A model generated the notes under the pieces. The model was not told the DNA's origin, did no database searches, and saw only the letters and a program-made list of their open reading frames with translations. The position numbers and the translations under genes are program-made. Positions 28,761-45,597 of a DNA stretch of 49,422 nucleotides are shown piece after piece. Source of the DNA: Actinomycetes bacterium (lineage in GTDB: Bacteria; Actinomycetota; Acidimicrobiia; Acidimicrobiales; RAAP-2); the NCBI GenBank assembly GCA_021810205.1, contig JAJZJC010000012.1, positions 1 through 49,422 on the forward strand, in the 5' to 3' direction. Positions within the stretch are counted from its first letter, which is position 1, and each line of letters begins with the position of its first letter.

Positions 28761-30137
28761 TCAGGGCCCCGCCAGGCGCCGTGCGCGCTCGACCACCTCT
28801 CGACGTGCGCGTGGCTCGTCCACGGTGCGACAGACGCCGCCCTCGACGACCCGGCGGCCCCCGACCCACACGTCCGTGACGAGCCTGCTCGACGCCGCCC
28901 AGACCAGGTGGGAGAGCAAGTCGGCATCCGAGAGTCCCGGGACGAATGCGGGATCGTCGAGGTCCACGCGCACGAGATCGGCCAGGCTGCCCGGAACGAG
29001 GCACCCGGCCTCGACGCCGAGCGCCCCTGCGCCGCCGCGCGTGGCGAGCGACAGTGCGTCGAGCGTCCGAAGAGCCCCCGCGTCCGCCGCCGTGGCGCGC
29101 GCGAGCAACGGCGCGAGCCGGAGCTCCTCCCACAGATCGAGGTTGTCGTTGGACGCGGGACCGTCGGTCCCGATGCCCACCCGAAGCCCGCGTGCGCACA
29201 TCTCGGCCACCCGCGCTACCCCGCTGCCGAGCTTGCCGTTGCTCTGCGGGCAGTGGGCGACGGCGACGTCATGAGACGTGAGCAGGTCGAGATCGGCGTC
29301 GGAGAGCCACACCGAGTGTGCCGCGAGGACCTGACCGTCGAGCATGCCGACGCGCTCGAGCAGCGCCGGTGCACTGCAGCCGTACCGACCTTCGATGACC
29401 TCGCCCTCCGCCTTGGTCTCGGCCAGGTGGATGTGGACGAGCGCGTCGAGCTCGCCGGCGATCCGCGCGACCGCAGCAAGCCCCTCTTCGGGCAGCGCGT
29501 ACGCCGAGTGGGGGCCGATGCCGATCGACAGGAGGCCGCCGCGACCGTGCGCGTCGGCATGGAGCGTTCCGGCATCGTCAAGGCAGCGCTGCCAGGTCGC
29601 CTGGCCACCTCCGCCGGGCAGGTCGAAGACGCCGGGAGTCAGGATGCAGCGGATGTGGGCGTCGAGCGCGGCGTCGGCGACGACTCCCGCGTGCAAGTAC
29701 TGCTCACAGGTGGTCGTGACACCCGCTCGCAAGAGCTCGGCACTGCCGAGCGCCATCCCCCACCACACGTCGTCGGGGGTGAGACGCGCCTCTCGCGGCC
29801 AGATCGACTCGCGCAGCCAACGGTCGAGCGACAAGCCGTCGCCCGCACCGCGCATGAGGGTCATCGCGGAGTGGCCGTGGGTGTTCACCAACCCCGGCAT
29901 GAGCAAGCCGCCGACGACCTGCTCGCCGGCACGACCGGCGGTCGGGACGCGCCATGGCGCGTCGTCGCGCGCACCGACCCAGCTGATGCGGTCGCCGACG
30001 ACCTCCAGGGCCCCGGGACGCAAGACACGGCATGTCGGGTCCATCGTGACGACGACGTCGGCCACGAGCCGCTGGGTGCGCGGCGAGGGTGCAGGCTCGT
30101 CCGCGTCGGCCGGCGCCGCGTCGACGCGGGCGGTCAT
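28761..30137 (-). CDS. Amidohydrolase, MTA/SAH deaminase-like
   Basis: This metal-dependent amidohydrolase has 458 aa. It has metal ligands in NTHGHSAMTLMRG (HxH), HIHLAET and AHSVWLSDADLDLL, and GTDGPASNDNLDLWEELR. The last motif is characteristic of the 5-methylthioadenosine/S-adenosylhomocysteine deaminase group, although related guanine or chlorohydrolase-type enzymes share it. A purine nucleoside phosphorylase gene lies close by in divergent orientation, which suits a deaminate-then-phosphorolyse route for adenosine-type nucleosides. Its ATG overlaps the DtxR-type regulator stop as ATGA. Confidence 0.82.
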   Translation of the reverse strand: MTARVDAAPADADEPAPSPRTQRLVADVVVTMDPTCRVLRPGALEVVGDRISWVGARDDAPWRVPTAGRAGEQVVGGLLMPGLVNTHGHSAMTLMRGAGDGLSLDRWLRESIWPREARLTPDDVWWGMALGSAELLRAGVTTTCEQYLHAGVVADAALDAHIRCILTPGVFDLPGGGGQATWQRCLDDAGTLHADAHGRGGLLSIGIGPHSAYALPEEGLAAVARIAGELDALVHIHLAETKAEGEVIEGRYGCSAPALLERVGMLDGQVLAAHSVWLSDADLDLLTSHDVAVAHCPQSNGKLGSGVARVAEMCARGLRVGIGTDGPASNDNLDLWEELRLAPLLARATAADAGALRTLDALSLATRGGAGALGVEAGCLVPGSLADLVRVDLDDPAFVPGLSDADLLSHLVWAASSRLVTDVWVGGRRVVEGGVCRTVDEPRARREVVERARRLAGP

Positions 30138-30811
30138 GCGCGCGGTGTGGCGACGGAGACGAACAGGCGCCGGGCGATCTCGACGCCGAAGGCGACAGTG
30201 GCCCCTGTGACGTCCATCAAGACCGTCGCGTCGGGCGCGCGTGACGCCACCGTCGCCGTCACACCGGGGACGAAGCGATGCGCGTCGAGGTAGCGGAGCG
30301 CGTCGGTGTCCAGCTCGAGCTCCTCACTGATCCGCTCGAGGCGGACCCGCTCCCCCACCGCGGTCTCACAGAGTGCGAGCTGCGGCGCGCTCGGCCGGAC
30401 GCGGCCACTGCCTGGGATCGGGTTCCCGTGCGGGCACGTCGCCGGATCTCCTAGGAGCACGACGAGGCGCGCTTCGACGTCGTCTGAGATGACGTGCTCC
30501 CAACGGCCGGCCTCGGTGTGCACCTTGTACCACTCGAGACCGATCACGTCAGCGAGCAGACGCTCGGCGAGACGGTGCCTGCGTACCACCTTCTCAGCGA
30601 GCGCCGAGCCCTTGTCGGTCAGCTGCACCACCCTCCCGTCGCGCCGCACGTATCCATCGAGCGCGAGCCGGTCGAGCATCTCGGAGACCGACGGTGCGGA
30701 GCGCCCGAGCCGTTCGGCGATGCGTGCCTGGATGACCGGGGTGCCCTCCTCTTTCAGTGAGTGCACCGTCTCGAGGTACTCCTCGAGCGGGGGGTGGTAG
30801 CCGTCGACCAC
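30134..30811 (-). CDS. DtxR/MntR-family metal-dependent transcriptional regulator
   Basis: This 225-aa regulator has an N-terminal winged helix (IAERLGRSAPSVSEMLDRL), a dimerisation/metal domain (VVRRHRLAERLL, HTEAGRWEHVISDDVEARL, CPHGNPIPG) and a C-terminal FeoA/SH3-like domain. Numbering runs parallel to C. diphtheriae DtxR: H79, E83, H98, E105 and H106 are kept, but the DtxR ligand Cys102 is Gly102 and Met10 is Glu10, so the primary metal site differs. It is the first gene of a two-gene operon with the amidohydrolase. The GTG start at 30811 has TAGGCT 7 nt upstream. Confidence 0.9.
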   Translation of the reverse strand: MVDGYHPPLEEYLETVHSLKEEGTPVIQARIAERLGRSAPSVSEMLDRLALDGYVRRDGRVVQLTDKGSALAEKVVRRHRLAERLLADVIGLEWYKVHTEAGRWEHVISDDVEARLVVLLGDPATCPHGNPIPGSGRVRPSAPQLALCETAVGERVRLERISEELELDTDALRYLDAHRFVPGVTATVASRAPDATVLMDVTGATVAFGVEIARRLFVSVATPRA

Positions 30812-30818
30812 GGCCGGA

Positions 30819-30824
30819 AGCCTA
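30819..30824 (-). promoter_or_regulatory. Possible leaderless -10 (TAGGCT) of the DtxR-type regulator gene
   Basis: TAGGCT, 7 nt, GTG at 30811 on the minus strand. Confidence 0.4.
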
Positions 30825-30916
30825 ATGGGGGTTCACCCTCGGGAACGGTGGCAGCCGACCTTCGCCGGCGTGGCCGGGCCGCAGGCCAGACGAGCCGGTC
30901 GTCACTTGTAGCGCAC

Positions 30917-30922
30917 TAGCCT
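30917..30922 (+). promoter_or_regulatory. Possible leaderless -10 (TAGCCT) of the nucleoside phosphorylase gene
   Basis: TAGCCT, 8 nt, GTG at 30931. No Shine-Dalgarno is seen. Confidence 0.4.
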
Positions 30923-30930
30923 TGCCGGGC

Positions 30931-31812
30931 GTGCCCTCCACGCGCGCCGGCGCGCCCGGCGCCAACCCGTTCGACCAAGCCCGTGTGGCAGCGCGGGAGC
31001 TGCGGCGTATGACCGGCGCCGCCCGCCACGACGTCCTGGTCGTTCTCGGTACGGGCCTGTTTCCCGTCGCCGCGCAGCTCGGGGCGACGGGCCCGCCGAT
31101 CGACCTCACCTCGCTCCCGTGGTTCTCGCGCTTCACCGGGCCCGGGCATCGCCCCGAGGCGTGGTCGGTGCCACTGGGCGAGGCGCGCGTGCTCGTGGTC
31201 GCTGGGCGCCTCCACCTGTACGAAGGCGCGACCCCCTCCGAGGTCGTCCACGGCGTCCGCACGGCCATCGCAGCGGGGGTGCGGACGGTGATCCTCACCT
31301 GCAGCGCAGGCGGGTTGAACCCTGCCTTCTCGACGGGAGAGGTGGTCGCGATCTCGGACCACCTGAACCTCACCGGCACCTCCCCGCTCCTAGGGGAGGC
31401 TGTCGACGCGGTCGGTGGCGGCCGCCACATCGAGATGACCGATGCCTGGTCACCGCGCCTGCGCATGCTCACCCACGCGGTGGCGCCGGTGCGCGAAGGG
31501 GTCTACGCGCAGGTGCTCGGCCCCGAGCTCGAAACGCCGGCGGAGATCAAGATGCTCGCCACGCTCGGTGCCGACCTCGTGGGCATGTCGACGGTGCCCG
31601 AAGCGATCGCCGCTCGCCACCTCGGCGCAGAGGTGCTGGGGCTCGCAGTCGTGACGAACGCAGCGGCGGGGATGGGCGGATCGCCGGTCGCGCTCGACGA
31701 GATCGTCGATACTGCCGGTCGTGCGGTCGAGGAGGTCACCGCGCTCACGCGCGGCGTGATCGAGCAATTGCACACGAACGTGACGGCGGAAGGCGACTCG
31801 CTGCGAGGCTAG
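30931..31812 (+). CDS. Purine nucleoside phosphorylase (trimeric PNP type)
   Basis: This enzyme phosphorolyses purine nucleosides to base and (deoxy)ribose 1-phosphate. It has 293 aa from the GTG. Signatures of the inosine/guanosine-type trimeric enzyme are ILTCSAGGLNPAF, ISDHLNLTGTSPL, the substrate-site Glu in VLGPELETPAEI, and LVGMSTVPEAIAARHLG, with Asn in AVVTNAAAGM that favours 6-oxopurines. A methylthioinosine phosphorylase role is possible given the nearby MTA/SAH-deaminase-like gene. A perfect 15-bp hairpin overlaps its stop codon. Confidence 0.93.
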   Translation: MPSTRAGAPGANPFDQARVAARELRRMTGAARHDVLVVLGTGLFPVAAQLGATGPPIDLTSLPWFSRFTGPGHRPEAWSVPLGEARVLVVAGRLHLYEGATPSEVVHGVRTAIAAGVRTVILTCSAGGLNPAFSTGEVVAISDHLNLTGTSPLLGEAVDAVGGGRHIEMTDAWSPRLRMLTHAVAPVREGVYAQVLGPELETPAEIKMLATLGADLVGMSTVPEAIAARHLGAEVLGLAVVTNAAAGMGGSPVALDEIVDTAGRAVEEVTALTRGVIEQLHTNVTAEGDSLRG

Positions 31813-33414: not shown

Positions 33415-34380
33415 TCACGCGAGCGATCGACGAACCCCTTCGACGATCCGCTCGACCGACGGCATGGCCGCATCCTCCAGCGCGTCGGCAGCTGGGAGCG
33501 GCACATGTGGCGTCGTGACCCGTACGATCGGCCCGTCGAGGTCGAACAGGTGCTCCTCGGCGATGATGGAGGCCAGTTCCGCGCCCCACCCGCACAAGCG
33601 AGGGTTCTCCTCGACCGTGACGAGGTGCCCCGTCTCGGCGACGGATGCAGCGACAGTGGTCACGTCGAGGGGCACGAGCGATCGCAAGTCGACGACGGTG
33701 ACTTCGACGCCATCCGCGCAGAGCAGCGACGCGGCCTCGAGGGCACGCGGCACCATCGCCGCGAGTGCCACTACCGTCGCGTCGCTGCCGCGCCGCACGA
33801 CAGCTGCCCTTCCCAGCTCGTCGACGACCTCCCCATCGGGCACCTCGCCCCTGGAGGGATAGAGCGACTTCTGCTCGAAGAAGAGGACCGGATCAGGGTC
33901 TCGCACGGCGGCCGCGAGCAGGCCTGCGACGTCTCGCGCGGTGGACGGCGCAACGACTTTCAAGCCGGGGATCGCCATCGCCCAGTTCTCCACGCTCTGG
34001 GAGTGTTGGGCGCCGAAACGCGCACCGCCACCGTTCGCCGAGCGGATCACCAGCGGAAGGGCGAGCTGGCCGTTGGTCATGTACCGCGCCTTCGCAATCT
34101 CGTTGGCCACGATGTCCCAGCACACGGCGAAGAAGTCGGAGAACATGATCTCGGCAATCGGGCGCAGGCCGGTCATCGCCGCGCCCATCGCCGCACCGAT
34201 GATGGCCTGCTCGGAGATCGGCGTGTCCACGACTCGTGTAGGACCGAATCGGTCCAGAAGCCCCACGGTCGCCTTGAACACCCCGCCGGCGGCACCGACG
34301 TCCTCACCGATGAAGACGACCGACGGGTCACGGGCCATCTCCTGGGCGATCGCGTGGGCAACCGCATCTCGATACGTCAT
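33415..34380 (-). CDS. 2-oxo acid dehydrogenase E1 component, beta subunit (PdhB/AcoB-like)
   Basis: This is the beta subunit of a thiamine-diphosphate E1 heterotetramer (pyruvate, branched-chain 2-oxo acid or acetoin dehydrogenase type). At 321 aa it is full length. Motifs are VVFIGEDVGAAGGVFKAT, the RVVDTPISEQAIIGAAMG stretch, MFSDFFAVCWDIVANEIAK, RFGAQHSQSVENW and the C-terminal transketolase domain (TVVDLRSLVPLD, VEENPRLCGWGAE). The ATG overlaps the E1 alpha stop as ATGA. No lipoyl E2 or E3 gene is in the window. Confidence 0.92.
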   Translation of the reverse strand: MTYRDAVAHAIAQEMARDPSVVFIGEDVGAAGGVFKATVGLLDRFGPTRVVDTPISEQAIIGAAMGAAMTGLRPIAEIMFSDFFAVCWDIVANEIAKARYMTNGQLALPLVIRSANGGGARFGAQHSQSVENWAMAIPGLKVVAPSTARDVAGLLAAAVRDPDPVLFFEQKSLYPSRGEVPDGEVVDELGRAAVVRRGSDATVVALAAMVPRALEAASLLCADGVEVTVVDLRSLVPLDVTTVAASVAETGHLVTVEENPRLCGWGAELASIIAEEHLFDLDGPIVRVTTPHVPLPAADALEDAAMPSVERIVEGVRRSLA

Positions 34381-35405
34381 CTCCGCCACGAGGACCCCCC
34401 ATCCGCCCAGACATCGCGCTCGACGACGAAAAGGTCGGGCGGTGGGCTCGCCATGGCTTCTTGGGTCGCTTCGTCGACCGCTCGCGCCGAGGAAAGCTCG
34501 ATCTCCTCCAAGGTCGATGCGTCGACGCCCGATTCGACAAGGCGCTGGCGATAGCGCGGGATCGGGTCCCGCGAGAGCCACGCCTGCAGCTCTTCCTCCG
34601 GTCGGTACTTCCCGGGATCTGCGCGCGAATGCCCTCCGTGCCGGTAGGTCTCGGCCTCCACGAGCGATGGACCCTCCCCGGCGCGCGCACGTGCGATCGC
34701 CGCGACGGCGACGGCGTACGTCGCGTCCGCGTCGTTGCCGTCCACGAGCACGGGACTGAGCCCGTAGGCTGCGGCGCGATCCGCGGCGGGATGCTCGACG
34801 GCGGTCACGTGCGAGATCGGGGTGTACTCCATGTACCGGTTGTTCTCGCAGCAGAACACCACGGGAAGGGACCAGACGGCCGCGAGGTTCAGCGCCTCGT
34901 GGAACGCGCCGATGTTCGTGGCACCGTCGCCGAAGAAGCACACCACGACGTCCTTGGTACCGCGGAGCTTGGCCGACCAGGCTGCACCGTTCGCGATCGT
35001 GAGGTGCGCGCCGACGATCGCGTAGGAGCCCATCATGCGCTTCCCGACTGTGGTGAGATGCATCGAGCCACCCTTGCCCGCCATCAGCCCACCCGCCCTG
35101 CCCATCAGCTCGGCCATCACGGCCGCCATCGCTACTCCGCGCGCGAGCGTGTGGTTGTGCCCGCGGTAGGTGGCGAACGTGTAGTCGCCGGGAGCCATTG
35201 CCGCACCGAACCCGGCAGCGATGGCCTCCTGACCGAGCCCGAGATGGCTCGTACCCTTGACCAGGCCCTGAAGGAAGAGGTCGTGGGCGCGCTTTTCGAA
35301 GTCGCGCATCTCGACCATGCGAGCGTAGATGCGCAGACGTACGTCACGTGGCGGAGGAGCGGCCTCGTGGGACGCCGACGTGGCGAGGTCCGCAAGCTCC
35401 TTCAT
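34377..35405 (-). CDS. 2-oxo acid dehydrogenase E1 component, alpha subunit (PdhA/AcoA-like)
   Basis: This is the ThDP-binding alpha subunit, 342 aa. The ThDP motif is GDGATNIGAFHEALNLAAVW ... ENN. Other signatures are TYRGHNHTLARG, AGGLMAGKGGSMH and ETYRHGGHSRADPGKYR (phosphorylation-loop region of the family). The start is the ATG at 35405 with GGAGGA 8 nt upstream. It forms an operon with E1 beta. LacI operator B is 51-62 nt upstream, directly after a -10-like TAGCCT. The substrate cannot be told from sequence by eye; the acetoin, pyruvate and branched-chain subfamilies are close. Confidence 0.92.
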   Translation of the reverse strand: MKELADLATSASHEAAPPPRDVRLRIYARMVEMRDFEKRAHDLFLQGLVKGTSHLGLGQEAIAAGFGAAMAPGDYTFATYRGHNHTLARGVAMAAVMAELMGRAGGLMAGKGGSMHLTTVGKRMMGSYAIVGAHLTIANGAAWSAKLRGTKDVVVCFFGDGATNIGAFHEALNLAAVWSLPVVFCCENNRYMEYTPISHVTAVEHPAADRAAAYGLSPVLVDGNDADATYAVAVAAIARARAGEGPSLVEAETYRHGGHSRADPGKYRPEEELQAWLSRDPIPRYRQRLVESGVDASTLEEIELSSARAVDEATQEAMASPPPDLFVVERDVWADGGSSWRR

Positions 35406-35494: not shown

Positions 35495-36766
35495 TCAGTA
35501 CGGGTTCGTGACGAAGAGCTCCTGCGCCGGGAAGAGCGTGATCACCTGGGGACCGTTCTCACCGACGACGATCTCCTCTTCGATGCGAGCGGCGGAGTGC
35601 CCGTCGGTCGCCGGACAGTAGGTTTCGAGCGCGAAGACCATCCCGGCTTCGATCTCCATCGGGTGATCCAGCGAACAGAGCCTGCTGATGATCGGGCGCT
35701 CGTGCAGTGCGAGCCCGAGCCCGTGGCCGAACTGCAGGCCGAACGCCTCATGCTCGTTCGCGAGCCCGATGTCTCGAGCGGTGGGCCACAGCCGCGCAAT
35801 CTGGTCAGTGCCCACACCTGGCTTCACCAGGTCGATCGCGGCGTCCATCCACTCCCGGGCGCGCGTGTAGGCGTCACGCTGCGGCGCGGTCGAGTAGCCC
35901 ACCGCAAAGCTCCGGTAGTAGCACGTGCGGTACCCGTTGAACGAGTGCATGACGTCGAAGAACGCTTGCTCCCCTGGCCGGATCATGCGGTCCGAGAAGT
36001 TGTGGGGGTGCGGGACGCAGCGCTCCCCAGACACCGCGTTGACCGACTCGACGTCGTCGGAGCCCGAGCGATAGAGCGTTTCGTTCACGAGAGCGACGAT
36101 CTCGTGCTCGCAGACTCCCGGCTTCAGCGCCTCGGCCACCCGCTGGTAGGCGCCGTCGACCATGGCGGCTGCGCGCGACAGCAGCATGATCTCGTCGGGT
36201 GACTTGAGCTGGCGCGCATCGAGCATCACCTGCTGGCCATCTCGCACGTCGATGCCAGCGCGCTGCAGGGCGAACAGGGTGGGAGGGTCGATCAGGTCGA
36301 CGCCAACTGGGCTGTCCGCGACGCCGTGCTGCCGGAGCACATCGGCAATCTCGCTCGCGAGCCGGTCGGGCAGCTCGGATGCAGGGTCGACCGCGCCGCG
36401 CATGGTGGAGATCGCCGGACGGGAGTTCTGCGCCTCGATCCATGGAGAGTGGAGCCGGTGGTAGACGGCGGCGGACCCGAAGTCCCACACCATCGGCTCC
36501 CCGCGGCGCGTGAGGAGCGAGTATCGAGTGAGCTTGTCGCGCGACCACTCTCCGATGGCCGTGCTCGTGATGTAACGGATGTTGTTGCAGTCGAAGCAGA
36601 GGAGCGCGCCGAGCTCGGAGCGGTCGAGCGCTTCTCGCGCACGAAAGAGGCGGTACTCGTGGAGCCGGGTGAAATTTACCCGCTCTTCGATATCGACGGC
36701 CATGGCACCTGGCGCCGGTGCGGCGAGCCTGCTGGTCTGCTCCGTCATGTGCGTCACCTCCGACAC
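35495..36766 (-). CDS. M24-family (Xaa-Pro aminopeptidase/creatinase fold) hydrolase with a substituted metal ligand
   Basis: This pita-bread-fold M24 protein has 423 aa: an N-terminal creatinase-like domain (about 35-185) and a catalytic domain (195-415). Compared with E. coli aminopeptidase P, ligands D271, H348 (FGHGLGLALH), E381 (ALETY) and E396 (ARIEEEIV) are kept. The second Asp of the D-x11-D pair is Cys282 (FFDVMHSFNGYRTCYYRSF). A normal dinuclear site is therefore doubtful; it may bind one metal or act like non-peptidase M24 members such as creatinase or ectoine hydrolase. LacI operator C lies upstream, shared with the divergent hydrolase gene. Confidence 0.85.
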   Translation of the reverse strand: MSEVTHMTEQTSRLAAPAPGAMAVDIEERVNFTRLHEYRLFRAREALDRSELGALLCFDCNNIRYITSTAIGEWSRDKLTRYSLLTRRGEPMVWDFGSAAVYHRLHSPWIEAQNSRPAISTMRGAVDPASELPDRLASEIADVLRQHGVADSPVGVDLIDPPTLFALQRAGIDVRDGQQVMLDARQLKSPDEIMLLSRAAAMVDGAYQRVAEALKPGVCEHEIVALVNETLYRSGSDDVESVNAVSGERCVPHPHNFSDRMIRPGEQAFFDVMHSFNGYRTCYYRSFAVGYSTAPQRDAYTRAREWMDAAIDLVKPGVGTDQIARLWPTARDIGLANEHEAFGLQFGHGLGLALHERPIISRLCSLDHPMEIEAGMVFALETYCPATDGHSAARIEEEIVVGENGPQVITLFPAQELFVTNPY

Positions 36767-37030: not shown

Positions 37031-38125
37031 ATGACAGCCGCACCCGGCGCAAGAGACCCCCGCGTCGAGGCCGCGGCAGCCCACTGGGGCCCGCGGTTCG
37101 TCCACAACGGCACCGACCAGGCCGACTTCGACGAGACGCTGGCGCGCATCGACCAGTGGGCGCAGTGGTGCCACGAGTGGGGACGCACCGCCGAGCGGTA
37201 CGAGGCACTCGCAGCGCATGCCGACCGGGCTCGCCACTTCGAGACTGCGGCGGACGCCTGGCGTCGTGCAGGGCTGTGCTGGCATTGGGCGAAGTTCGTC
37301 TTCGTCGAAGACCCCGCCGCGCAGCGCGCCGCCCACGACCGCTGCGTCGCCTGCTACGCCCGCGGCGCCCTGGCCCTCCGGCCACCCGCGCGCCGCGTAT
37401 CCGTGCCATACCGCGCAACTGCGCTGCCGGGCTACCTCCGTGTACCAAGTACCGGCGCTGGCGCGCCCCCCGTGGTCGTCATGGTCCCAGGGCTCGACTC
37501 GGTGAAGGAGGAGCTGCAAGCGACCGCCGAGTACATCGTCGCTCGGGGGATGGCGGCGCTCGCGCTCGACGGACCCGGCCAGGGCGAGAGCGAGTACGAG
37601 CTCGCGATCGAGCCTGCGTACGAGTCCGTGGCGGCTGCGGCGCTCGACTTCTGCGAGACGCTGGACGACGTCGATGCGGCGCGCGCCGGGATCTTCGGCG
37701 TGAGCCTCGGCGGGTACTACGCCGCGCGTTCGATGGCCTACGAACCCCGTCTGCACGCAGGGGTCGCCCTCGCTGGCCCCTACCGCTTCGACGCGGAATG
37801 GGACAGCCTGCCTCCGATGACCCGCGAGGCCTTTCGCCACCGATGCGGGGCGCACGATGAGCAGGAAGCTCGCGAACGAGCTGGTGCGCTCACCCTTGAC
37901 GGCGCGGCCGCCCGCATCACCCGTCCACTCCTCGTCGTCCACGGTGCGAACGACCGAATCGTCGGTCCCGACCACGCTCGGCGCATCGCGGCCGAGGCGC
38001 CAGGCGCCCAGCTTCGCATGTTCGACGACGGCAACCATGGCGTGACCAACCACGCGTGGGAGTCGCGTTCGGAGATGGCCGACTGGCTCGCGGATCAGCT
38101 CGGCGCAGCCGACGCAGCCCGATAG
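37031..38125 (+). CDS. Alpha/beta hydrolase, pseudooxynicotine-hydrolase/FrsA-like
   Basis: This alpha/beta hydrolase has 364 aa with an N-terminal helical domain of about 120 residues, as in 2,6-dihydroxypseudooxynicotine hydrolase (a C-C hydrolase) and FrsA-like proteins. Core motifs are VVVMVPGLDSVKEEL (oxyanion strand), ALDGPGQGESEYE, the nucleophile elbow GVSLGGYYAARS, the acid in VVHGANDRIV and His in DDGNHGVTNH. The substrate is unknown; C-C, ester or amide hydrolysis are possible. It is expressed divergently from the M24 gene and convergent with livF. LacI operator C is upstream. Confidence 0.85.
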   Translation: MTAAPGARDPRVEAAAAHWGPRFVHNGTDQADFDETLARIDQWAQWCHEWGRTAERYEALAAHADRARHFETAADAWRRAGLCWHWAKFVFVEDPAAQRAAHDRCVACYARGALALRPPARRVSVPYRATALPGYLRVPSTGAGAPPVVVMVPGLDSVKEELQATAEYIVARGMAALALDGPGQGESEYELAIEPAYESVAAAALDFCETLDDVDAARAGIFGVSLGGYYAARSMAYEPRLHAGVALAGPYRFDAEWDSLPPMTREAFRHRCGAHDEQEARERAGALTLDGAAARITRPLLVVHGANDRIVGPDHARRIAAEAPGAQLRMFDDGNHGVTNHAWESRSEMADWLADQLGAADAAR

Positions 38126-38156: not shown

Positions 38157-38954
38157 TCAGCGTCCAGGCGGTGTCTCCGGGGCACCCGCGGGACGCGACG
38201 CTCCGACGACGCCCCCGAGGAAGAGCGCTCCGATCTCGGGGTTCTCGAGCACCTCACGCCCGCTGCCCGCGAGTCGTACTCGGCCGTTCTCGAGCACCAC
38301 GCCGTGCGTTGCGAGTCGAAGTCCCGCACGTGCATTCTGCTCGACGAGCAGGACCGTTCTGCCGTGACGATGCAGCGACCGCACGGTCTTGAACACGATC
38401 TTTCGGGTATGGGGGTCGAGTCCCATCGAGGGCTCATCGAGCACGACGAGCGCGGGATCCAGCATGAGGCATCGGGCGAACTCGACGAGACGCTGCTGGC
38501 CACCCGAGAGGCTTCCAGCTTTGTCCTTGGCCCGCTCAGCCACGATCGGGATCGTCTCCGCTATCTGCTCGTAGCGCTCACGCACGATCGTTCGGTCCTT
38601 CAGAATGAAGGCACCGAGCTCCACGTTCTCGCGCACGGTCATCTCGCGGAACAGGCTGTGGTTCTGAGGCACTTGGACGATGCCGCGCTCGAGTCGCTCC
38701 CTGGGAGTGGCCTTCTTCAATCGCTCGCCACGAAACACCAGCTCGCCGACGGTCGTCCGGACCACCCCGCTCACCGTCCCGAGCAGCGTCGATTTGCCGG
38801 CGCCGTTGGGCCCGACCACGCACGTGAGCCCGCCTTCGGGCACCTCGAAGGACACCTCGTGCAAGATGTCGGCACCGCCATAGCCTGCACAGACACCGCG
38901 GAACTCGAGAAGCGGCTGCGTGGAGGCTAGAGCCGGCGCAACACGGTCGCTCAC
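38157..38954 (-). CDS. livF: Branched-chain amino acid-type ABC transporter ATPase LivF
   Basis: This second ATPase of a LIV/HAAT-type importer has about 265 aa. Walker A is VVGPNGAGKSTLL, the Q-loop VPQNHSLF, the ABC signature LSGGQQRLVEFAR, Walker B LVVLDEPSMGLDP and the H-loop VEQNARAG. The GTG at 38954 overlaps the livG stop; GTG at 38978 is an in-frame alternative. It is the last gene of the operon. Confidence 0.93.
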   Translation of the reverse strand: MSDRVAPALASTQPLLEFRGVCAGYGGADILHEVSFEVPEGGLTCVVGPNGAGKSTLLGTVSGVVRTTVGELVFRGERLKKATPRERLERGIVQVPQNHSLFREMTVRENVELGAFILKDRTIVRERYEQIAETIPIVAERAKDKAGSLSGGQQRLVEFARCLMLDPALVVLDEPSMGLDPHTRKIVFKTVRSLHRHGRTVLLVEQNARAGLRLATHGVVLENGRVRLAGSGREVLENPEIGALFLGGVVGASRPAGAPETPPGR

Positions 38955-39781
38955 ATGGTCAGAGGTCTGTGGCGCCACGACCCCCCCTCTCTCGACCCGC
39001 CTGGCTCGTCGTCCTCGTCGTCCTCGTCGTCCTCGTCGTCGGAGCCGCCCAGGTACGCGTCGATCACCCGGGGGTCGTTGCGAATCACGTCGGGGGTACC
39101 CGACACGATCGGGGTGCCCTGGTGCATCACGGTCACGCTATGGCACAGGCTCATGACGAACTCCATGTTGTGCTCGACCACGAGGAAGGTCTTGCCCCGC
39201 TCGTTCAGCGCGCGGATGCGGTCGGCGATCAGATTGATGAGCGTCGGGTTCACACCGCCTGCGGGCTCGTCGAGGAGAATGATCACCGGATCGGCGACCA
39301 GTACATACGCGAGCTCGAGCAACTTGCGCTGGCCGAACGAAAGGTTGCCCGCGGGGAGATGGCCGAGATGACCGAGCCCCACGAACTCGAGGATCTCTTT
39401 GGCCCGCGCACGCTCTGCTGGCGACGACTGCCCCTTTACGACGCTGCGAAGCCATCCTTCGTGGCGCTGCGTGGCGACGAGCATGTTCTCCATCACACTC
39501 AGGCGCGAGAACACCCGGGCCAGCTGGAAGGTTCGGCCGAGCCCGAGGCTGAACACCCTGGCAGGGGTCGCACGAGTGACGTCGACCCCGCGTACCCTCA
39601 CCGTTCCGCTGTCGGGCCGCAAGTACCCGGTGATCACGTTGAAAAGGGTGGTCTTTCCCGAGCCGTTGGGTCCGATGAGCCCTGCAACCTCTCCCTCCTG
39701 CACGCCGAGGGAACAGTCCCGGAGCGCCACGAGGCCGCCGAATGCCCTCGAGACGGAGTCCACCTCGAGAAGAGCGCTCAC
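38951..39781 (-). CDS. livG: Branched-chain amino acid-type ABC transporter ATPase LivG
   Basis: This 276-aa ATPase has Walker A (LIGPNGSGKTTLFN), the LivG-type RTFQLARVFSRLSVMENML segment, signature LSFGQRKLLELA, Walker B IILLDEPAGGVNP and switch VEHNMEFVM. The C-terminal tail is unusual: a run of DDE repeats from a 9-bp tandem repeat followed by a Gly/Ser/Arg-rich end. It overlaps livM (ATGA) and livF (GTGA). Confidence 0.93.
   Translation of the reverse strand: MSALLEVDSVSRAFGGLVALRDCSLGVQEGEVAGLIGPNGSGKTTLFNVITGYLRPDSGTVRVRGVDVTRATPARVFSLGLGRTFQLARVFSRLSVMENMLVATQRHEGWLRSVVKGQSSPAERARAKEILEFVGLGHLGHLPAGNLSFGQRKLLELAYVLVADPVIILLDEPAGGVNPTLINLIADRIRALNERGKTFLVVEHNMEFVMSLCHSVTVMHQGTPIVSGTPDVIRNDPRVIDAYLGGSDDEDDEDDEDDEPGGSREGGSWRHRPLTM
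39005..39040. repeat. Four perfect copies of a 9-bp unit in livG
   Basis: CTCGTCGTC repeated at 39005, 39014, 39023 and 39032. It encodes the acidic DDE tail of LivG on the minus strand. Confidence 0.95.
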
Positions 39782-40929
39782 CGTCCACCTGCCCGGGCGC
39801 TCGGGGGGCGCGCGTGATGCGCTTCCGATGCCGCCAATGCGCCCGTTGACGGTGCAGGCGGCAGGGCATTCACCATCGCTTGGGCTCGGCGCTCACGCCA
39901 GCGTTGATACGAGTCGGCGACGGTCGGGATCACGCCTCGGGGGAGCAGCACGATCACCACGAGGAACAGAACCCCGTACGCGATGAGGTACAGGCTGCCG
40001 GACGAGTACTGGATGGTGAAGTACTGCTGGAGCGACTCGAGCAGCGCCGCGCCGAGCAGCGGGCCCGAGATCGTCCCGAAGCCACCCAAGAAGGCCATGA
40101 TCGCGACCGACAAGTCGAAGAGCGCTGTGAACGCGAACTGGGGATGGATGTCTCCGAGAAAGTACGCCCACACGGCGCCAGCCATCCCGACCGAGAACGC
40201 CGACACCACGAACGCGATGAGCTTCACCCGCGTGGTCTTCACGCCGAGGCCGGCGGCACGATCTTCGTCGTCTCGGAGGGCAAGAAGCTGGAGGCCGAAC
40301 CGTGACCGGCGTATCCCGGCCGAAAGAAGCAGCGCCACGACGAGAACGCACAGCGCGGCGTAATAAAAGCGCTGGTTGAATCCCATTCCTGTCCATGGGG
40401 GTGTCGGGAGCGTCACTCCCCGGGAACCCAAGGTCAGCGAGGAAAGATTGTAGGCAAGCAGCTGGAAGATGAAGAAGGCGGCGATGGTGATCACCACGAA
40501 CGTGTGACGGCGGGTGCGCAACGCGATCAGGCCGAACGGCACGGCGATCACCATGGCGACCCCACCGGCGACGGGCACATACCAAAAGACCCCGTAGCCA
40601 CCCGCCAGGTGCAGATGCAGCGCGATCAGCGCGATCGTGTAGGCACCGCTGCCGAAAAATACCGCATGCCCGATGCTGATATAGCCCGAGTACCCCGAAA
40701 AACTGTTCCACGCGGTCGCCGCGGCCATGAAGAGGACGGAGAAGAAGGCGATCGACGTCACTGCCGGTGTCGAGAACACTAGGGGGAAGGCGACGAGCGC
40801 GATCGCGATCAGGATCCATGCAGCAGCCTTTGCTCGCCGTGTCATCGCACCCAGGGGCACGCGCGGTGAGCTCCCCTTGCGTGTGTCAGGACCTGCCGTC
40901 GTGCTCGCGTCGAGAAGACCGTCCGTCAT
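39778..40929 (-). CDS. livM: Branched-chain amino acid-type ABC transporter permease LivM
   Basis: This inner-membrane permease has 383 aa with about nine hydrophobic helices. Family motifs are WNSFSGYSGYISIGHAVFFG near residue 75, LIALRTRRHTFVVITIA, the cytoplasmic EAA-like loop LRDDEDRAAGLGVKTTRVKL, and FLGGFGTISGPLLGAALLE. It is 67 nt downstream of livH. Confidence 0.93.
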   Translation of the reverse strand: MTDGLLDASTTAGPDTRKGSSPRVPLGAMTRRAKAAAWILIAIALVAFPLVFSTPAVTSIAFFSVLFMAAATAWNSFSGYSGYISIGHAVFFGSGAYTIALIALHLHLAGGYGVFWYVPVAGGVAMVIAVPFGLIALRTRRHTFVVITIAAFFIFQLLAYNLSSLTLGSRGVTLPTPPWTGMGFNQRFYYAALCVLVVALLLSAGIRRSRFGLQLLALRDDEDRAAGLGVKTTRVKLIAFVVSAFSVGMAGAVWAYFLGDIHPQFAFTALFDLSVAIMAFLGGFGTISGPLLGAALLESLQQYFTIQYSSGSLYLIAYGVLFLVVIVLLPRGVIPTVADSYQRWRERRAQAMVNALPPAPSTGALAASEAHHARPPSARAGGR

Positions 40930-40996: not shown

Positions 40997-41878
40997 TCAT
41001 TGCGCCCTCGTCGAGACCTTGCCGAACAGCCCCTGTGGGCGGACGGAGAGCACGATCAAGAGCACCAGGAAATAGATCACCGGTGCCCAGACAGGCGACC
41101 AGACGACGGCCACGACGTCTTCGAGCACGAGCATGAACACGGCGGCACCCATCGCCCCACCGATGCTTCCGAGCCCGCCAAGGACGATGATCGTAAGGAG
41201 CCTCGAGATCAGGTCCGTGCTGCTGTTGGCACTGAAGTCGTTCGTCGCCCCGAACACCATGCCTCCGGCTGCGGTCACCGCTACCCCGATGCCGAACGTG
41301 ATCGTCGACACCCGCTTCACGTTCACTCCGATGAGGGTCGCCGCCGTCCGGTCCTGGAGCGCGGCTCGCAGGCTGGCCCCGAAGCGCGTGCGGTACATGA
41401 GCGCGTAGAGAGCGGCGATGAGAAGGGCGGCGAGGACGAAGCCGAACACGTAGATGTACTCGAGGTAGAAGCCGAAGACGTGCCAGGTCCGCGCGAAGTA
41501 CGACGGACGCAGCTGCACGAATGTCGTCCCGAAGGCAATGTCGAGCGCACCCTCGATCACGAGGGAGACGGCGTAGGTGACGAGGATCGACATCGACACC
41601 CGGTCCCGGTCCCCGATTCGCCGCATGAACGCCCACTCGACCCCGATGCCCACCACGAAGAGGATCGGGATCGTGACGAGGAGCCCGAGGAACGGATCGA
41701 TCCCCGCGTGTGCCCACAGCGCGTAGCTCAGGTACGAGCCGAGCAACACGAAGATGCCCTGCGCGATGTTGATGATCTCGAGCATCCCGAAGATCAGCGT
41801 GAGGCCAGCCGCCATCAGCGCGTACAGGCCGCCCGTCAGCACGCCGTCGATCACCGCTTCCACGAGCTGGGTGCCCAT
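40997..41878 (-). CDS. livH: Branched-chain amino acid-type ABC transporter permease LivH
   Basis: This permease has 293 aa with about eight membrane helices. Signatures are GLYALMAAGLTLIFGMLEII followed by NIAQG at the N-terminus, the EAA-like loop RAALQDRTAATLIGVNVKRV and IIVLGGLGSIGGAMGAA. It lies 113 nt downstream of livK. Confidence 0.93.
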   Translation of the reverse strand: MGTQLVEAVIDGVLTGGLYALMAAGLTLIFGMLEIINIAQGIFVLLGSYLSYALWAHAGIDPFLGLLVTIPILFVVGIGVEWAFMRRIGDRDRVSMSILVTYAVSLVIEGALDIAFGTTFVQLRPSYFARTWHVFGFYLEYIYVFGFVLAALLIAALYALMYRTRFGASLRAALQDRTAATLIGVNVKRVSTITFGIGVAVTAAGGMVFGATNDFSANSSTDLISRLLTIIVLGGLGSIGGAMGAAVFMLVLEDVVAVVWSPVWAPVIYFLVLLIVLSVRPQGLFGKVSTRAQ

Positions 41879-41991: not shown

Positions 41992-43311
41992 TCAGCTGCT
42001 CCAGGCCGGCTTCGGGTACAGCGGCGGCACCGAGCCTGAGGCTGTCTTGGGGAGGACCTGCTCGAGCACAGGCTTGCCCGACCTTGTCTGCCACTGGAAC
42101 GCGAACACCAACCCCTTCACGTTCGCTCCGTCGCTGTTGAACTTGACCGGTCCCTGCACCGACGTGAACGTCTTGCCGCTGTGGAGGTACTTGATGATCT
42201 TCTTGTTTGTGAAGCCGTGGGTCCCTTCCACCGCCTGGGTCAGCACCTCACCGACCGAGTAGGCCTCGGCCGTTGTCGCGGTGACGTCGGAGACCGATCC
42301 ACCGTACGTGTGCAGGTACGCCTTGACCATTGCCTTGCTCAGCTTGTTCTTGATCCCGGGGTACCAGCCGTTCGGGTTGAACACCCCGATCGCGTTCTTG
42401 GCCCCGACGGCCTTCAAGAACGTGGCTCCCTCGTCGGAGCCCGAGGTGTCGATGAACGCCTTCGGGTTGTAGTGCGCGGTCTCGAATGCACCCATGAACG
42501 CGGACACTGTCGGGGTGGCGACCGAGCCGAGGAGGACGATCTGCGCATTGCTCGAGGCAATTCCCCCGGCGATCGGCGAGAAGTCGGTCGTCTCTGTCGG
42601 GAAGACCTTTGTGTAGACCGTCTTCACACCCGCCTTTTCGAGGATCTTGCGGGCGACGGGGAACTGCGACGACGTGAAGATTGTTGTGACGGTGGCGTAC
42701 GCGGCCGTCGTGGGTCGCGCGGACTTCGGCATCGACGCGATCCACTTGGCGAACGGGACGAGGCCTGTCGCGACTGGATACGAAACGTCGAAGACGTTCG
42801 GCAGGTGCTGGGCAAAGATGTCCGGTGCCCCACCTGCGCCTTCGACGAGCGCATAGCCGTAGCGACGAGCGATCTTCGCCGAGGGAAGCGTCAAGAGCGA
42901 CGAGAACGGCCCGATGGTGAGCTTCACGTGGTCGTGCGCGATCAAGGTGCTGTAGTTCGTCGCCGCCTGGGTCGGTGTCGACTTGTCCGAGAGGATCTTG
43001 AGCTCGATCTTGTGGCCGAGCAGGCCGCCGTGCTTGTTCTGGTAGGTCTGCCAGAGGTGGTACCCCTGTGTGAATGCCTTGCCCGCGCCCGAGAAGTCCC
43101 CCGACAGCGACAGCGACGCCCCGATGAGGATGGGCGACCCCAGCTTCCTGCGCGCATGGGTCGCTGCGCCAGCAGCCGAGGAGCTCGCCCCAGTCGCTGC
43201 CATCAGCGTCAGAGCGGCGACCAGGCTGCCTGCCGCACCGGCCCGAACCGCCCGGCACCATATCCGATGCCCGACGCGCCCGACTCGCCCTCCCGTACCT
43301 GTGCTTTGCAT
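41992..43311 (-). CDS. livK: LIV-type periplasmic/extracellular substrate-binding protein
   Basis: This type I periplasmic binding protein has 439 aa with a cleavable signal peptide: twin basic start, a hydrophobic stretch ending near ASSSAAGAA, no lipobox. The mature part begins ILIGASLSLSGDFSGAGKAFTQGY, which is typical for LIV, amide or aromatic-acid binding proteins. The ATG at 43311 has GGGAGG 4 nt upstream. It lies 58 nt downstream of the HIBADH-like gene; the gap holds GCACGC/GCGTGC inverted arms (43331-43349). The ligand is unknown. It is the best handle on the cluster's substrate. Confidence 0.9.
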   Translation of the reverse strand: MQSTGTGGRVGRVGHRIWCRAVRAGAAGSLVAALTLMAATGASSSAAGAATHARRKLGSPILIGASLSLSGDFSGAGKAFTQGYHLWQTYQNKHGGLLGHKIELKILSDKSTPTQAATNYSTLIAHDHVKLTIGPFSSLLTLPSAKIARRYGYALVEGAGGAPDIFAQHLPNVFDVSYPVATGLVPFAKWIASMPKSARPTTAAYATVTTIFTSSQFPVARKILEKAGVKTVYTKVFPTETTDFSPIAGGIASSNAQIVLLGSVATPTVSAFMGAFETAHYNPKAFIDTSGSDEGATFLKAVGAKNAIGVFNPNGWYPGIKNKLSKAMVKAYLHTYGGSVSDVTATTAEAYSVGEVLTQAVEGTHGFTNKKIIKYLHSGKTFTSVQGPVKFNSDGANVKGLVFAFQWQTRSGKPVLEQVLPKTASGSVPPLYPKPAWSS

Positions 43312-43369: not shown

Positions 43370-44458
43370 TCAAGCGGTCCCTGCGTCCCTCCCCCTTTCG
43401 ACGGTGAGGGGCCCGCCGGAGGGGGCTCCGTCACCGGTGCTGCTCAGCTCGTCCACCGATGGTGGTTCGAGCCCGTCGCTCAGCAGCGCTCCTTCGCTTT
43501 CGAGCACTAATCCGGCGCCGCGCGCGAGTATCTCGACGAGCGCCGCGAAGTCCATGTCCCCGATGCCTGTACCGATCGCGGACTGGAGGAGCTCGTACAC
43601 GAGGCCGGAGACGGGCATCGGGACTTCCAGCGCGCGCGCTGCGGCGAGGCCGAGATCGAAGTCCTTGTGGAGTAGCCGCGTCGTGAACGTCGGCGTGAAG
43701 TCGAGGTTCACGATCGCCGGCGTCTTGTACCGCGTGAACATCGAGCCCATGACCGATTCGTTCAAGAAGGAGAGGAAGTCCTGACGACGCACGCCGCCTT
43801 TTTCGGCGAGCACCGTCACCTCCACGAGCGACTGGATGACGACGCCGAGCATCAGGTTGTGGCACAGCTTGACCAGCCTCGACACGTCGCCGTCTCCGAC
43901 GTACGTCGCTTCACGCGCCACGGTGCGCAGGTACGGCACGACATCGTCGAACGCGGCACGCGGGCCCGAGACTGCCATGGTGAGCCGTCCCGCGGCGGCA
44001 ACTTTCGGGTTGCCACTCACTGGCGCCGCGAGAAACGCGACGCCGCGCTCGGCGAGCATCCCGCGCGCCTGCGCGCTCGCCTGCTCCGAGACGGTCGAGC
44101 AGTCCACGACGACGTTCGGAAGGCGGCGCGAGGCGAGGAGCCCCACCTCTTCGTCGAGCACAGCAAGGAGGTCGCTCGACGACGCCACCGTTACGAAGAC
44201 CACATCGCACTGGCCGAGGTCGGCCAACGTCGAGACGACGGACGCGCCCAGTGCCTCGAGCGGCTCGGTCTTCGCTCGGGTCCGGTTGTAGACCGCGACG
44301 TCGTGCCCGGCGTGCACGAGGCGTTCTGCCATCGCGGCACCCATCCTGCCGGTGCCGATCCAGCCGAACCTCGCCACAGTGGGTGCCCCGCCGTCGGAGC
44401 CCTGCAGCCCTGGCGCCCCCCCGGAGCCCGTTGCCCCATCGGGAGCAAACGTTTGCAT
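43370..44458 (-). CDS. 3-hydroxyisobutyrate dehydrogenase-family oxidoreductase
   Basis: This NAD(P)-dependent beta-hydroxyacid dehydrogenase has 362 aa. It has Rossmann motif FGWIGTGRMGAAMAERL, substrate motif (AAPVSGNPKVAAAGRL), catalytic Lys region (VSRLVKLCHNLMLG) and C-terminal helical domain (LLHKDFDLGLAAARAL). Related enzymes oxidise 3-hydroxyisobutyrate, tartronate semialdehyde, 2-(hydroxymethyl)glutarate and others. The ATG at 44458 is 6 nt after a -10 (GATACT), so the mRNA is probably leaderless, and LacI operator D overlaps the first codons. It probably heads an operon with livKHMGF. Confidence 0.9.
   Translation of the reverse strand: MQTFAPDGATGSGGAPGLQGSDGGAPTVARFGWIGTGRMGAAMAERLVHAGHDVAVYNRTRAKTEPLEALGASVVSTLADLGQCDVVFVTVASSSDLLAVLDEEVGLLASRRLPNVVVDCSTVSEQASAQARGMLAERGVAFLAAPVSGNPKVAAAGRLTMAVSGPRAAFDDVVPYLRTVAREATYVGDGDVSRLVKLCHNLMLGVVIQSLVEVTVLAEKGGVRRQDFLSFLNESVMGSMFTRYKTPAIVNLDFTPTFTTRLLHKDFDLGLAAARALEVPMPVSGLVYELLQSAIGTGIGDMDFAALVEILARGAGLVLESEGALLSDGLEPPSVDELSSTGDGAPSGGPLTVERGRDAGTA
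44445..44456. promoter_or_regulatory. LacI-type operator D (perfect palindrome) at the HIBADH-livKHMGF promoter
   Basis: GCAAACGTTTGC is a perfect 12-bp palindrome with the central CG of LacI/GalR-family operators. It starts at the G of the ATG and covers codons 1-5, directly downstream of the predicted transcription start, so bound repressor would block initiation. Confidence 0.85.
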
Positions 44459-44464
44459 TTCAGT

Positions 44465-44493
44465 AGTATCACAGGCCCCTCGTGCGATGTCAA
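44465..44493 (-). promoter_or_regulatory. Strong sigma70-type promoter of the HIBADH-livKHMGF operon
   Basis: -35 TTGACA (44488-44493), 17-bp spacer, -10 GATACT (44465-44470), 6 nt, ATG at 44458. It is the closest consensus promoter on the minus strand, and the transcript would start at the ATG. Confidence 0.75.
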
Positions 44494-44553
44494 GACCCAC
44501 GGTCAGTTCGCCGTCACATCGCCGCCCACGCGCCGGCGCGTGCAGCCAACGCC

Positions 44554-45597
44554 TCAGCGCGTTGCCGCGGGCACCCGCAACGTCGATTGACGGACTACGA
44601 GCTCGGGGGCGAGCACCACCACGCGAAGCGGACCTCGCTGGTCGCGGACGAGCTCGACCAGGAGATCGGCGGCCCGGGCGCCGATGCTGTAGTGAGGGAT
44701 GCGTACCGTGGTGAGCGGGGGGTGGAGACGATCGACGAACGGCATGTCGTTGAACCCGACGATGGACACGTCTTCAGGGCATCGAAGCCCCGCATGTTCG
44801 ACAGCGCTGACGGCCCCCAGGGCCAACATGTCGTTGCCGGCGACGATCGCGCTCGGCCTGCGCTTCTTCTCGAGCAACGCGGTCGCGCACCTCTCGCCTT
44901 CGGCGACAGAGAATTGCTCGGCGAACGCGACCAGCTCGGGATCGGCTGGAGCTCCCGACGCGGCCATGCTCGAGAGAAATCCATGGTAGCGAGCGTGACC
45001 GGTGGACATGCTCTGGGGTCCTGCCACGTGACCGATCCGCACGTGGCCGAGATTGCGCAGGTGGTCGACTGCCATGCGAACTCCAACCACGTCGTCGACC
45101 GACACCGACGAGAACGTCGCATCCTCCACGACACGATTGATGAGCACGATGGGGATGCCCTCGGCGGCGAACATTGCGAGATCATCGTCCTTGCGGCTTG
45201 CCGTCGCGAGCACCAGGCCATCGACTCTGCGGTCCACCATGCTCTCGAAGATCTTCCGCTGGCGGTCGGGGTCCCCTTCGGTGTTCGCGAGCAGCGTCAC
45301 GAACCCTGAATCGAAAAGACGGTCTTCCACGCCACGCACCATTGGCGGGAAGAGGGGGTTGTTGATGTCGGGGATCACGATGCCGACCGAATTGGTCCGG
45401 CGCGTCTTGAAGCTGCGAGCGAGAAGATTGGGCTTGTAGCCGAGCTGCTCCGCGGCGAACAGGATCCTCTCGACGGTCTCGGACCGTACGAGAGATCGAG
45501 TCTCCTCGTTCAGCGCGCGCGACGCCGTGCCGGGGTGCACACCTGCGGCGGTGGCGACGTCGCGTAAGGTCGCCGACCCCTTGGGCATCTTGTCCAT
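44554..45597 (-). CDS. LacI-family transcriptional regulator, probable repressor of the catabolic cluster
   Basis: This LacI/GalR-family regulator has 347 aa. The N-terminal HTH (TLRDVATAAGVHPGTASRAL, about 10-29) is followed by the hinge region YKPNLLARSFKTRRT. The effector domain is a type I periplasmic-binding fold (SVGIVIPDINNPLFPPMVRG, IVAGNDMLALGAVSAVEHAG). GGAGG precedes the ATG. The typical LacI-family operator motif occurs at four sites in the cluster, plus a weaker copy upstream of this gene, so it is the obvious regulator; the inducer is unknown. Confidence 0.93.
   Translation of the reverse strand: MDKMPKGSATLRDVATAAGVHPGTASRALNEETRSLVRSETVERILFAAEQLGYKPNLLARSFKTRRTNSVGIVIPDINNPLFPPMVRGVEDRLFDSGFVTLLANTEGDPDRQRKIFESMVDRRVDGLVLATASRKDDDLAMFAAEGIPIVLINRVVEDATFSSVSVDDVVGVRMAVDHLRNLGHVRIGHVAGPQSMSTGHARYHGFLSSMAASGAPADPELVAFAEQFSVAEGERCATALLEKKRRPSAIVAGNDMLALGAVSAVEHAGLRCPEDVSIVGFNDMPFVDRLHPPLTTVRIPHYSIGARAADLLVELVRDQRGPLRVVVLAPELVVRQSTLRVPAATR

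Follow-up and report, generated by a model that had tools for sequence, protein, structure and literature searches.

Introduction

The dinuclear metal fold of the M24 superfamily has been studied extensively, and the metallopeptidases of this superfamily carry a set of five ligand residues (Asp, Asp, His, Glu, Glu). Ectoine hydrolase and creatinase share this fold and work without metal. Another close relative is the iron-containing DMSP lyase DddP; according to the structural report on the enzyme of Roseobacter denitrificans, two ions modelled as iron are bound by D295, D297, D307, H371, E406 and E421, with Asp297 as an extra ligand and Asp377 as the proposed base (PMC4108388). In the structure cited, the second M24 Asp is thus a metal ligand.

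Here we describe an M24 protein in which this second Asp is replaced by Cys. It is encoded in a window of 49,422 nucleotides, i.e. the whole stretch of DNA that was analysed, which corresponds to contig JAJZJC010000012.1 of an Actinomycetes bacterium (Acidimicrobiales, RAAP-2; assembly GCA_021810205.1). The gene extends on the minus strand from 36766 to 35495, starts with GTG and codes for 423 amino acids, while several homologues begin near its residue 22; the frame-1 translation of the plus strand across 35495-36766 is interrupted by a stop. Such Cys-type M24 proteins make up a widespread uncharacterised family in several bacterial phyla and haloarchaea, and the fixation of Cys at the place of the second Asp provides a natural test of how a thiolate affects the M24 metal centre. 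In the open-licence literature we found no report on Cys at this M24 position or on the gene cluster described below, which is weak evidence of novelty.

Fold and family membership

Membership in the superfamily is supported by a score of 125.4 bits against the Pfam family PF00557 (Peptidase_M24; cut-off 23, E=3.4e-36). The five ligand positions are occupied by D271, C282, H348, E381 and E396, i.e. the metallopeptidase set is complete except for the second Asp. The original prediction of an Asp and a Cys spaced 11 residues apart, together with the retained His and both Glu, proved to be exact down to the residue numbers. On the minus strand, the codon of D271 (GAC), the first metal Asp, lies at 35954..35956 as computed from the frame, and the codon of C282 (TGC) at 35921..35923. 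In the alignments, C282 takes the place of the second Asp that PepQ-type proteins have in GYRSDMTR and DddP-like proteins in GYSIDISR. Judged from their titles, the solved structures also include the Asp271Ala and Asp260Ala mutants of E. coli aminopeptidase P, and from the motif we take these two residues to be the equivalents of C282 and D271, respectively.

The profile scores place the protein in the M24 superfamily, but outside of DddP, ectoine hydrolase and the named peptidases. The best NCBIfam match was DddP (NF043017), with 122.6 bits against a curated cut-off of 600, whereas the two models for the ectoine hydrolases DoeA/EutD gave 52.7 against 613 (TIGR02993) and 59.3 against 575 (NF038259). 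The score was likewise far below the cut-off of the equivalog models PepQ, PRK09795 and PRK10879. A structural model was obtained with AF2 from 74 aligned sequences, comprising the window protein and those from 73 of the 80 kept loci introduced below (63-82% identical to it), and reached a pLDDT of 88.6 and a pTM of 0.87. About 360-390 residues of the model could be superposed on DddP, on prolidases and on ectoine hydrolase. DddP (4b28) ranked first with both Foldseek and VIA-align 2 (Z 36.8, rmsd 2.6, 390 aligned residues, 23% identity), with prolidase 5cde (Z 36.5) and ectoine hydrolase 6yo9 (Z 36.4) tied with it and creatinase at about 34.

The prolidases and aminopeptidase P (5cde, 4ege, 1a16) share with the window protein the fold and all ligands bar one. 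H255 and R394 are also kept, as is H355 in the clade of the window protein, and we take these three to be at the places of the catalytic residues of aminopeptidase P. These peptidases differ, however, by an Asp-x-Thr/Ser-Arg motif in contrast to Cys-x-Tyr-Arg, and the window protein is encoded in a catabolic-looking cluster and scores far below the equivalog cut-offs.

Creatinase (1chm, 7yto, 1kp0) resembles the window protein in its fold (Z about 34), but the two are only 17-18% identical and were compared by fold. The similarity to ectoine hydrolase EutD/DoeA (6twj, 6twk, 6yo9) comprises the fold (Z about 36) and the role of an M24 protein acting on a small molecule; however, in our alignment DoeA of Phyllobacterium shows E, P, Y, M and T at the five ligand positions, whereas the window protein keeps four of the ligands and has Cys, a possible ligand, at the fifth position. 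Hence, the parallel to creatinase and ectoine hydrolase that was drawn initially stands as regards an M24 fold with an altered site, but it does not extend to the loss of ligands in the aligned ectoine hydrolase. The loss in the aligned ectoine hydrolase leaves room for a metal-free or mononuclear cysteine hydrolase, in which C282 would serve as nucleophile and form an acyl-enzyme, a feasible role for a Cys located in an active-site pocket. We consider such a mechanism improbable, because D271, H348, E381 and E396 are almost invariant among the relatives and would be needless in a metal-free enzyme. The near invariance of these four residues argues instead for a metalloenzyme as the most likely case, with C282 acting as a thiolate ligand in a one- or two-metal centre.

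DddP headed the solved structures in the sequence search as well (4 of the 83 PDB sequence matches were viewed aligned, all of them DddP), and lyase chemistry therefore comes into consideration, too. In a metal-assisted reaction of this kind the centre would bind a carboxylate and a base would take the alpha-proton, leading to elimination at a C-N, C-S or C-O bond. The DddP structures (4b28, 4rzy, 4s00, 4s01) resemble the window protein in fold, two-domain architecture and the Asp/His/Glu/Glu ligands, and DddP leads the comparisons by sequence, Foldseek and VIA-align, although the Z scores are tied as mentioned above. In the alignments, however, the place of the proposed base Asp377 is occupied by H355, the place of Asp297 by M273 or a gap, and that of Asp307 by Cys282, as compared with the residues given in the DddP report (PMC4108388). 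Together with the large distance to the DddP cut-off and the prolidase-like pair H255/H355 kept in the clade of the window protein, these differences make a DddP-like lyase rather unlikely.

Conservation and origin of the cysteine

The replacement of a metal ligand in a single sequence could result from a point mutation or a sequencing error, but this explanation was rejected, because the Cys is conserved across the relatives. C282 is invariant when the window protein is aligned with 10 relatives from four subgroups (35-85% identity). When the genome of the window and those of 60 relatives were searched (61 genomes in total), Cys was present in all relatives read with at least 35% identity, i.e. 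in 10 loci at 70-85%, 5 at 51-56%, 6 at 41-42% and 1 at 35%, while those read below 35% carried Asp, one Glu, or Gln in a degenerate paralogue.

A larger sample was obtained by a pattern scan of public genome contigs, which confirmed at least 564 relatives among the 598 pattern matches listed; 80 loci were kept for analysis. H255, D271, C282, H348, E381 and E396 were all present in each of these 80 loci kept from at least 564 relatives, a sample that is biased towards Cys because one of the two patterns contains CYY. Free of this bias and including Asp types was a search with the whole protein in 396 genomes of the phylum, which gave a match at E<=1e-40 in 43 of them; the following tallies cover all but a few of the matches listed. 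Besides the window's own locus, 29 loci (L148-L176) all carried Cys, as did four more at 52-58% identity (L207-L210), and the 20 weaker matches comprised 13 with Cys and 7 with Asp. Among all sequences read, identity to the window protein reaches at most 37.9% in Asp-bearing relatives and is 38.4% for the lowest one in the all-Cys range; below 38% Cys and Asp rows are intermixed. The original prediction had considered that homologues in the same context might carry Asp. The opposite was found, since Cys occurred in 80 of 80 context-scored loci and in all 20 loci of a further set (L198-L217), and every relative read above 38% identity has it. C282 is thus a genuine fixed residue.

The ancestry of the Cys was analysed with a tree of 56 rows, in which residue 282 was masked and long branches were flagged by the program. 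One supported branch (98/95) unites 35 Cys rows with four Asp rows (L183-L186), which in the free tree are nested inside the Cys branch with weak support; a single clade for the 35 Cys rows was not rejected (p-AU 0.44). A single origin of all 36 Cys rows was rejected (p-AU 9.7e-5), as the remaining one, L196, groups with DddP-like Asp proteins. Judged from its position in the tree, L196 probably represents a separate exchange between Asp and Cys.

Residues changing with the cysteine

Residues 255-396 are spanned by 113 of 114 alignments, and the remaining one was dropped. At position 282 these 113 rows, in which at least two Asp genes are counted twice through overlapping loci (L013/L046, L014/L047), contain 76 Cys, 35 Asp, one Glu and one Pro. 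A second position changes together with it: residue 284 (Tyr284 in the window protein, codon at 35915..35917, minus strand) is Tyr for 75 out of 76 Cys rows and for none of the 35 Asp rows, where Thr, Gly, Ser, Val or Ala was found instead. The resulting signature is Cys-x-Tyr-Arg versus mostly Asp-x-Thr/Ser/Gly-Arg in the Asp rows. In the model, residues 282 and 284 are located on one beta strand (279-289) and presumably face the same side, hence Tyr284 may reach the metal pocket as well.

The other ligands are almost completely retained in the Cys rows, with H348 and E381 in 76 of 76, E396 in 75 and D271 in 74. The exceptions are L191 and L192, in which Cys is present and the first Asp is changed to Thr, and the DddP-like L196, which has the Cys and Gly for the last Glu. 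The second shell is more variable. Of the 76 Cys rows, 55 have His at position 255 and the remainder R, W, A or L, while position 355 shows His in 43 rows, Tyr in 17, Trp in 15 and Glu in 1; some Cys clades are devoid of H255 and H355. As these second-shell positions vary while the Cys is fixed, the Cys seems to be linked with the metal core and not with the pocket for one particular substrate.

The relatives carry the public annotation 'Xaa-Pro peptidase family protein', which would agree with an ordinary peptidase bearing a neutral replacement of the Asp, or with a pseudoenzyme. We regard both as very improbable, considering that the Cys is fixed across phyla together with the coupled Tyr, that the peptidase models PepQ, PRK09795 and PRK10879 are missed by a wide margin, and that the gene context described below resembles that of small-molecule catabolism.

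Gene cluster in the window

The Cys-type M24 gene belongs to a cluster on the minus strand with the order LacI, HIBDH-like, five LIV-type importer genes, M24, E1 alpha and E1 beta. The LacI-family regulator is encoded at 44554..45597 and is followed by the gene for a protein resembling 3-hydroxyisobutyrate/tartronate-semialdehyde dehydrogenase (HIBDH-like, 43370..44500, PF03446 and PF14833), for which the longer reading frame was adopted because the called start at 44332 begins at profile position 14. The importer consists of a periplasmic binding protein (41992..43203, PF13458), two permeases resembling LivH (40997..41878) and LivM (39778..40929), a LivG-like ABC ATPase (38951..39781) and a second ABC transporter ATPase (38157..38978, called start 38855, PF00005) that is LivF-like by its place. 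Two of these five genes were scanned against the library, and the LivH-, LivM- and LivG-like ones were named from translation and place. Downstream of the M24 gene follow the genes for the alpha subunit (34377..35405, PF00676) and the beta subunit (33415..34389, PF02779/PF02780; 361.5 bits versus the PRK09212 cut-off of 321) of a thiamine diphosphate-dependent dehydrogenase E1. All these genes are read from the minus strand. With its LIV-type importer, LacI regulator, dehydrogenase and E1 genes the cluster looks catabolic, as had been proposed from the window alone. E2 and aldehyde dehydrogenase genes were not seen in the window's own cluster.

Between the importer and the M24 gene an alpha/beta hydrolase is encoded on the plus strand (37031..38125). 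Its best solved match is 2,6-dihydroxypseudooxynicotine hydrolase (2jbw, 1.9e-41), a C-C hydrolase of nicotine breakdown. Just outside the cluster, the window harbours an amidohydrolase gene (PF01979) and a gene of the phosphorylase superfamily (PF01048) at 28761-31812.

Neighbourhood in related genomes

The 80 loci kept from at least 564 relatives range in length from 4.0 to 19.3 kb, with 46 reaching 15 kb or more, and because of this limited length all neighbour counts represent lower bounds. Among the matches listed, they originate from Actinobacteria, Proteobacteria, Chloroflexi, Eremiobacterota, Acidobacteria and SAR324. Relatives of the neighbours were scored by tblastn at E<=1e-10 over at least 40% of the query. 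In these 80 loci, HIBDH relatives occurred in 51 (43 with at least 45% identity), E1 alpha in 47 (35 with at least 55%), E1 beta in 44, an SSADH-like aldehyde dehydrogenase in 34, LacI in 32, the LIV permease and the periplasmic binding protein in 24 each, E2 in 22 and the alpha/beta hydrolase in 17. At least one of the HIBDH, E1 and SSADH-like kinds was present in 70 of the 80 loci and at least two in 51.

The arrangement varies between the relatives. Three plasmids of the Roseobacter group carry the order M24-E1a-E1b-lipoyl/E2-SSADH-E2 and a sugar-type ABC importer; E1 alpha, E1 beta, E2, E3 and aldehyde dehydrogenase are found together on one of them and all but E3 on the other two, as compared with E1 alpha and beta only in the window. 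Where compared (L060), the E1 genes of these plasmids are only 42% identical to those of the window. A Streptomyces plasmid has the order HIBDH-M24-SSADH, followed by VOC, a fused E1 and E2. In five loci (L042:2542-4327, L043, L044, L045, L208) a transketolase split into two genes adjoins a 51-53% identical Cys-type M24 gene in place of E1 alpha and beta, and L045 additionally encodes an acetolactate-synthase-like protein. The 20 loci L198-L217 contain one of these thiamine diphosphate genes in 12 cases and a HIBDH-like gene in 9. In the closer clade, the partner is thus exchanged and still depends on thiamine diphosphate. We regard this as the best hint at the pathway, whose intermediate would probably be a 2-oxo acid or an alpha-hydroxyketone.

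The seven Asp-type loci, a small control of about 6-11 kb each, lack these context genes, as no relatives of E1, transketolase or HIBDH were detected at the same tblastn settings. Neither E1 nor transketolase was found at the 13 distant Cys-type loci among L177-L196 (27-41% identical), which gave one weak HIBDH match (27%). Hence, the more distant Cys clades serve other pathways. The recurrent context belongs to the closer clade, at about 50% identity and up, and the Cys is older, being common to clades with other neighbours. More distant relatives, 35-36% identical, reside on haloarchaeal plasmids, and the one that was read (L064) contains the CYYR motif. Next to a Cys clade of 38-42% identity an isopropylmalate-synthase-like (HMGL) gene was observed in L048:6635-9663, L049, L051, L179, L180 and L182; three of these six loci also contain an HbpS/GlcG-like gene, an indication of another pathway with the same Cys.

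The enzyme classes in the cluster would also fit the catabolism of pantothenate. The M24 protein would then be a pantothenase, the HIBDH-like protein pantoate 4-dehydrogenase, the SSADH-like protein aldopantoate dehydrogenase and E1/E2 the 2-oxoisovalerate dehydrogenase. In a paper from 2023 the pantothenase protein is called unknown (PMC10393543). However, no look-alike of a dimethylmalate dehydrogenase or a beta-alanine gene appeared among the 29 neighbour families that were present in at least four of the 80 loci kept from at least 564 relatives, which were judged from short starts of representatives, with some loci giving no gene calls. A single malic enzyme gene is situated about 5 kb from the Cys-type M24 gene in Rhodococcus. 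Moreover, the split transketolase in the sister clade does not fit to this pathway and the importers differ between the loci, so that a function as pantothenase appears highly doubtful.

Proposed function

The explanation that we favour, and to which we give about an even chance, is a metal-dependent M24 enzyme that is not a peptidase but acts in small-molecule catabolism, with the thiolate of C282 as ligand beside D271, H348, E381 and E396 and with C-N hydrolysis as the most likely reaction. In the closer clade, the recurrent cluster points to a catabolic pathway that is masked by the current peptidase annotation. As the first step, the imported substrate, a small molecule, would be cleaved by the Cys-type M24 enzyme, the putative substrate-opening hydrolase of the original prediction, probably through hydrolysis of an amide-like or cyclic C-N bond. 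The HIBDH-like enzyme may then oxidise a hydroxy group of the cleavage product, and the thiamine diphosphate enzyme, E1/E2 or the split transketolase in the sister group, would catalyse a cleavage or an acyl transfer. In many relatives the SSADH-like aldehyde dehydrogenase could finish the pathway by oxidising an aldehyde. Directly observed are the gene content and the residues, whereas metal binding by the thiolate, the hydrolysis and the order of the steps are inferred.

A more daring version of this proposal, which we put forward as an unlikely but attractive idea, assumes a dinuclear site with Fe, Zn, Co or Ni that is bridged by the Cys thiolate and accompanied by the coupled Tyr. Such a centre might cleave a bond that Asp-bridged M24 enzymes do not cleave, as part of an undescribed catabolic pathway built around a swapped thiamine diphosphate enzyme (E1 alpha/beta, fused E1 or split transketolase).

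Two further observations were made in the related loci. On Paenarthrobacter plasmids (L065, L062) Cys-type M24 genes of 55-56% identity are present, and the one in L065 has a RidA gene at its side and sulR in the vicinity, which raised the idea of a link to sulfonamide breakdown. Finally, a second M24 homologue that has lost most of the ligands sits in or near several Cys-type gene clusters. It is encoded at L034:1457-2656 on the minus strand and L049:1373-2536 on the plus strand, both aligned copies, taken from relatives of the window, showing E, Q, H, Q and G at the ligand positions, and has relatives in L087, L102, L117, L181, L205, L206, L207 and L210. This degenerate paralogue might work as an enzyme without metal or serve as a partner subunit.
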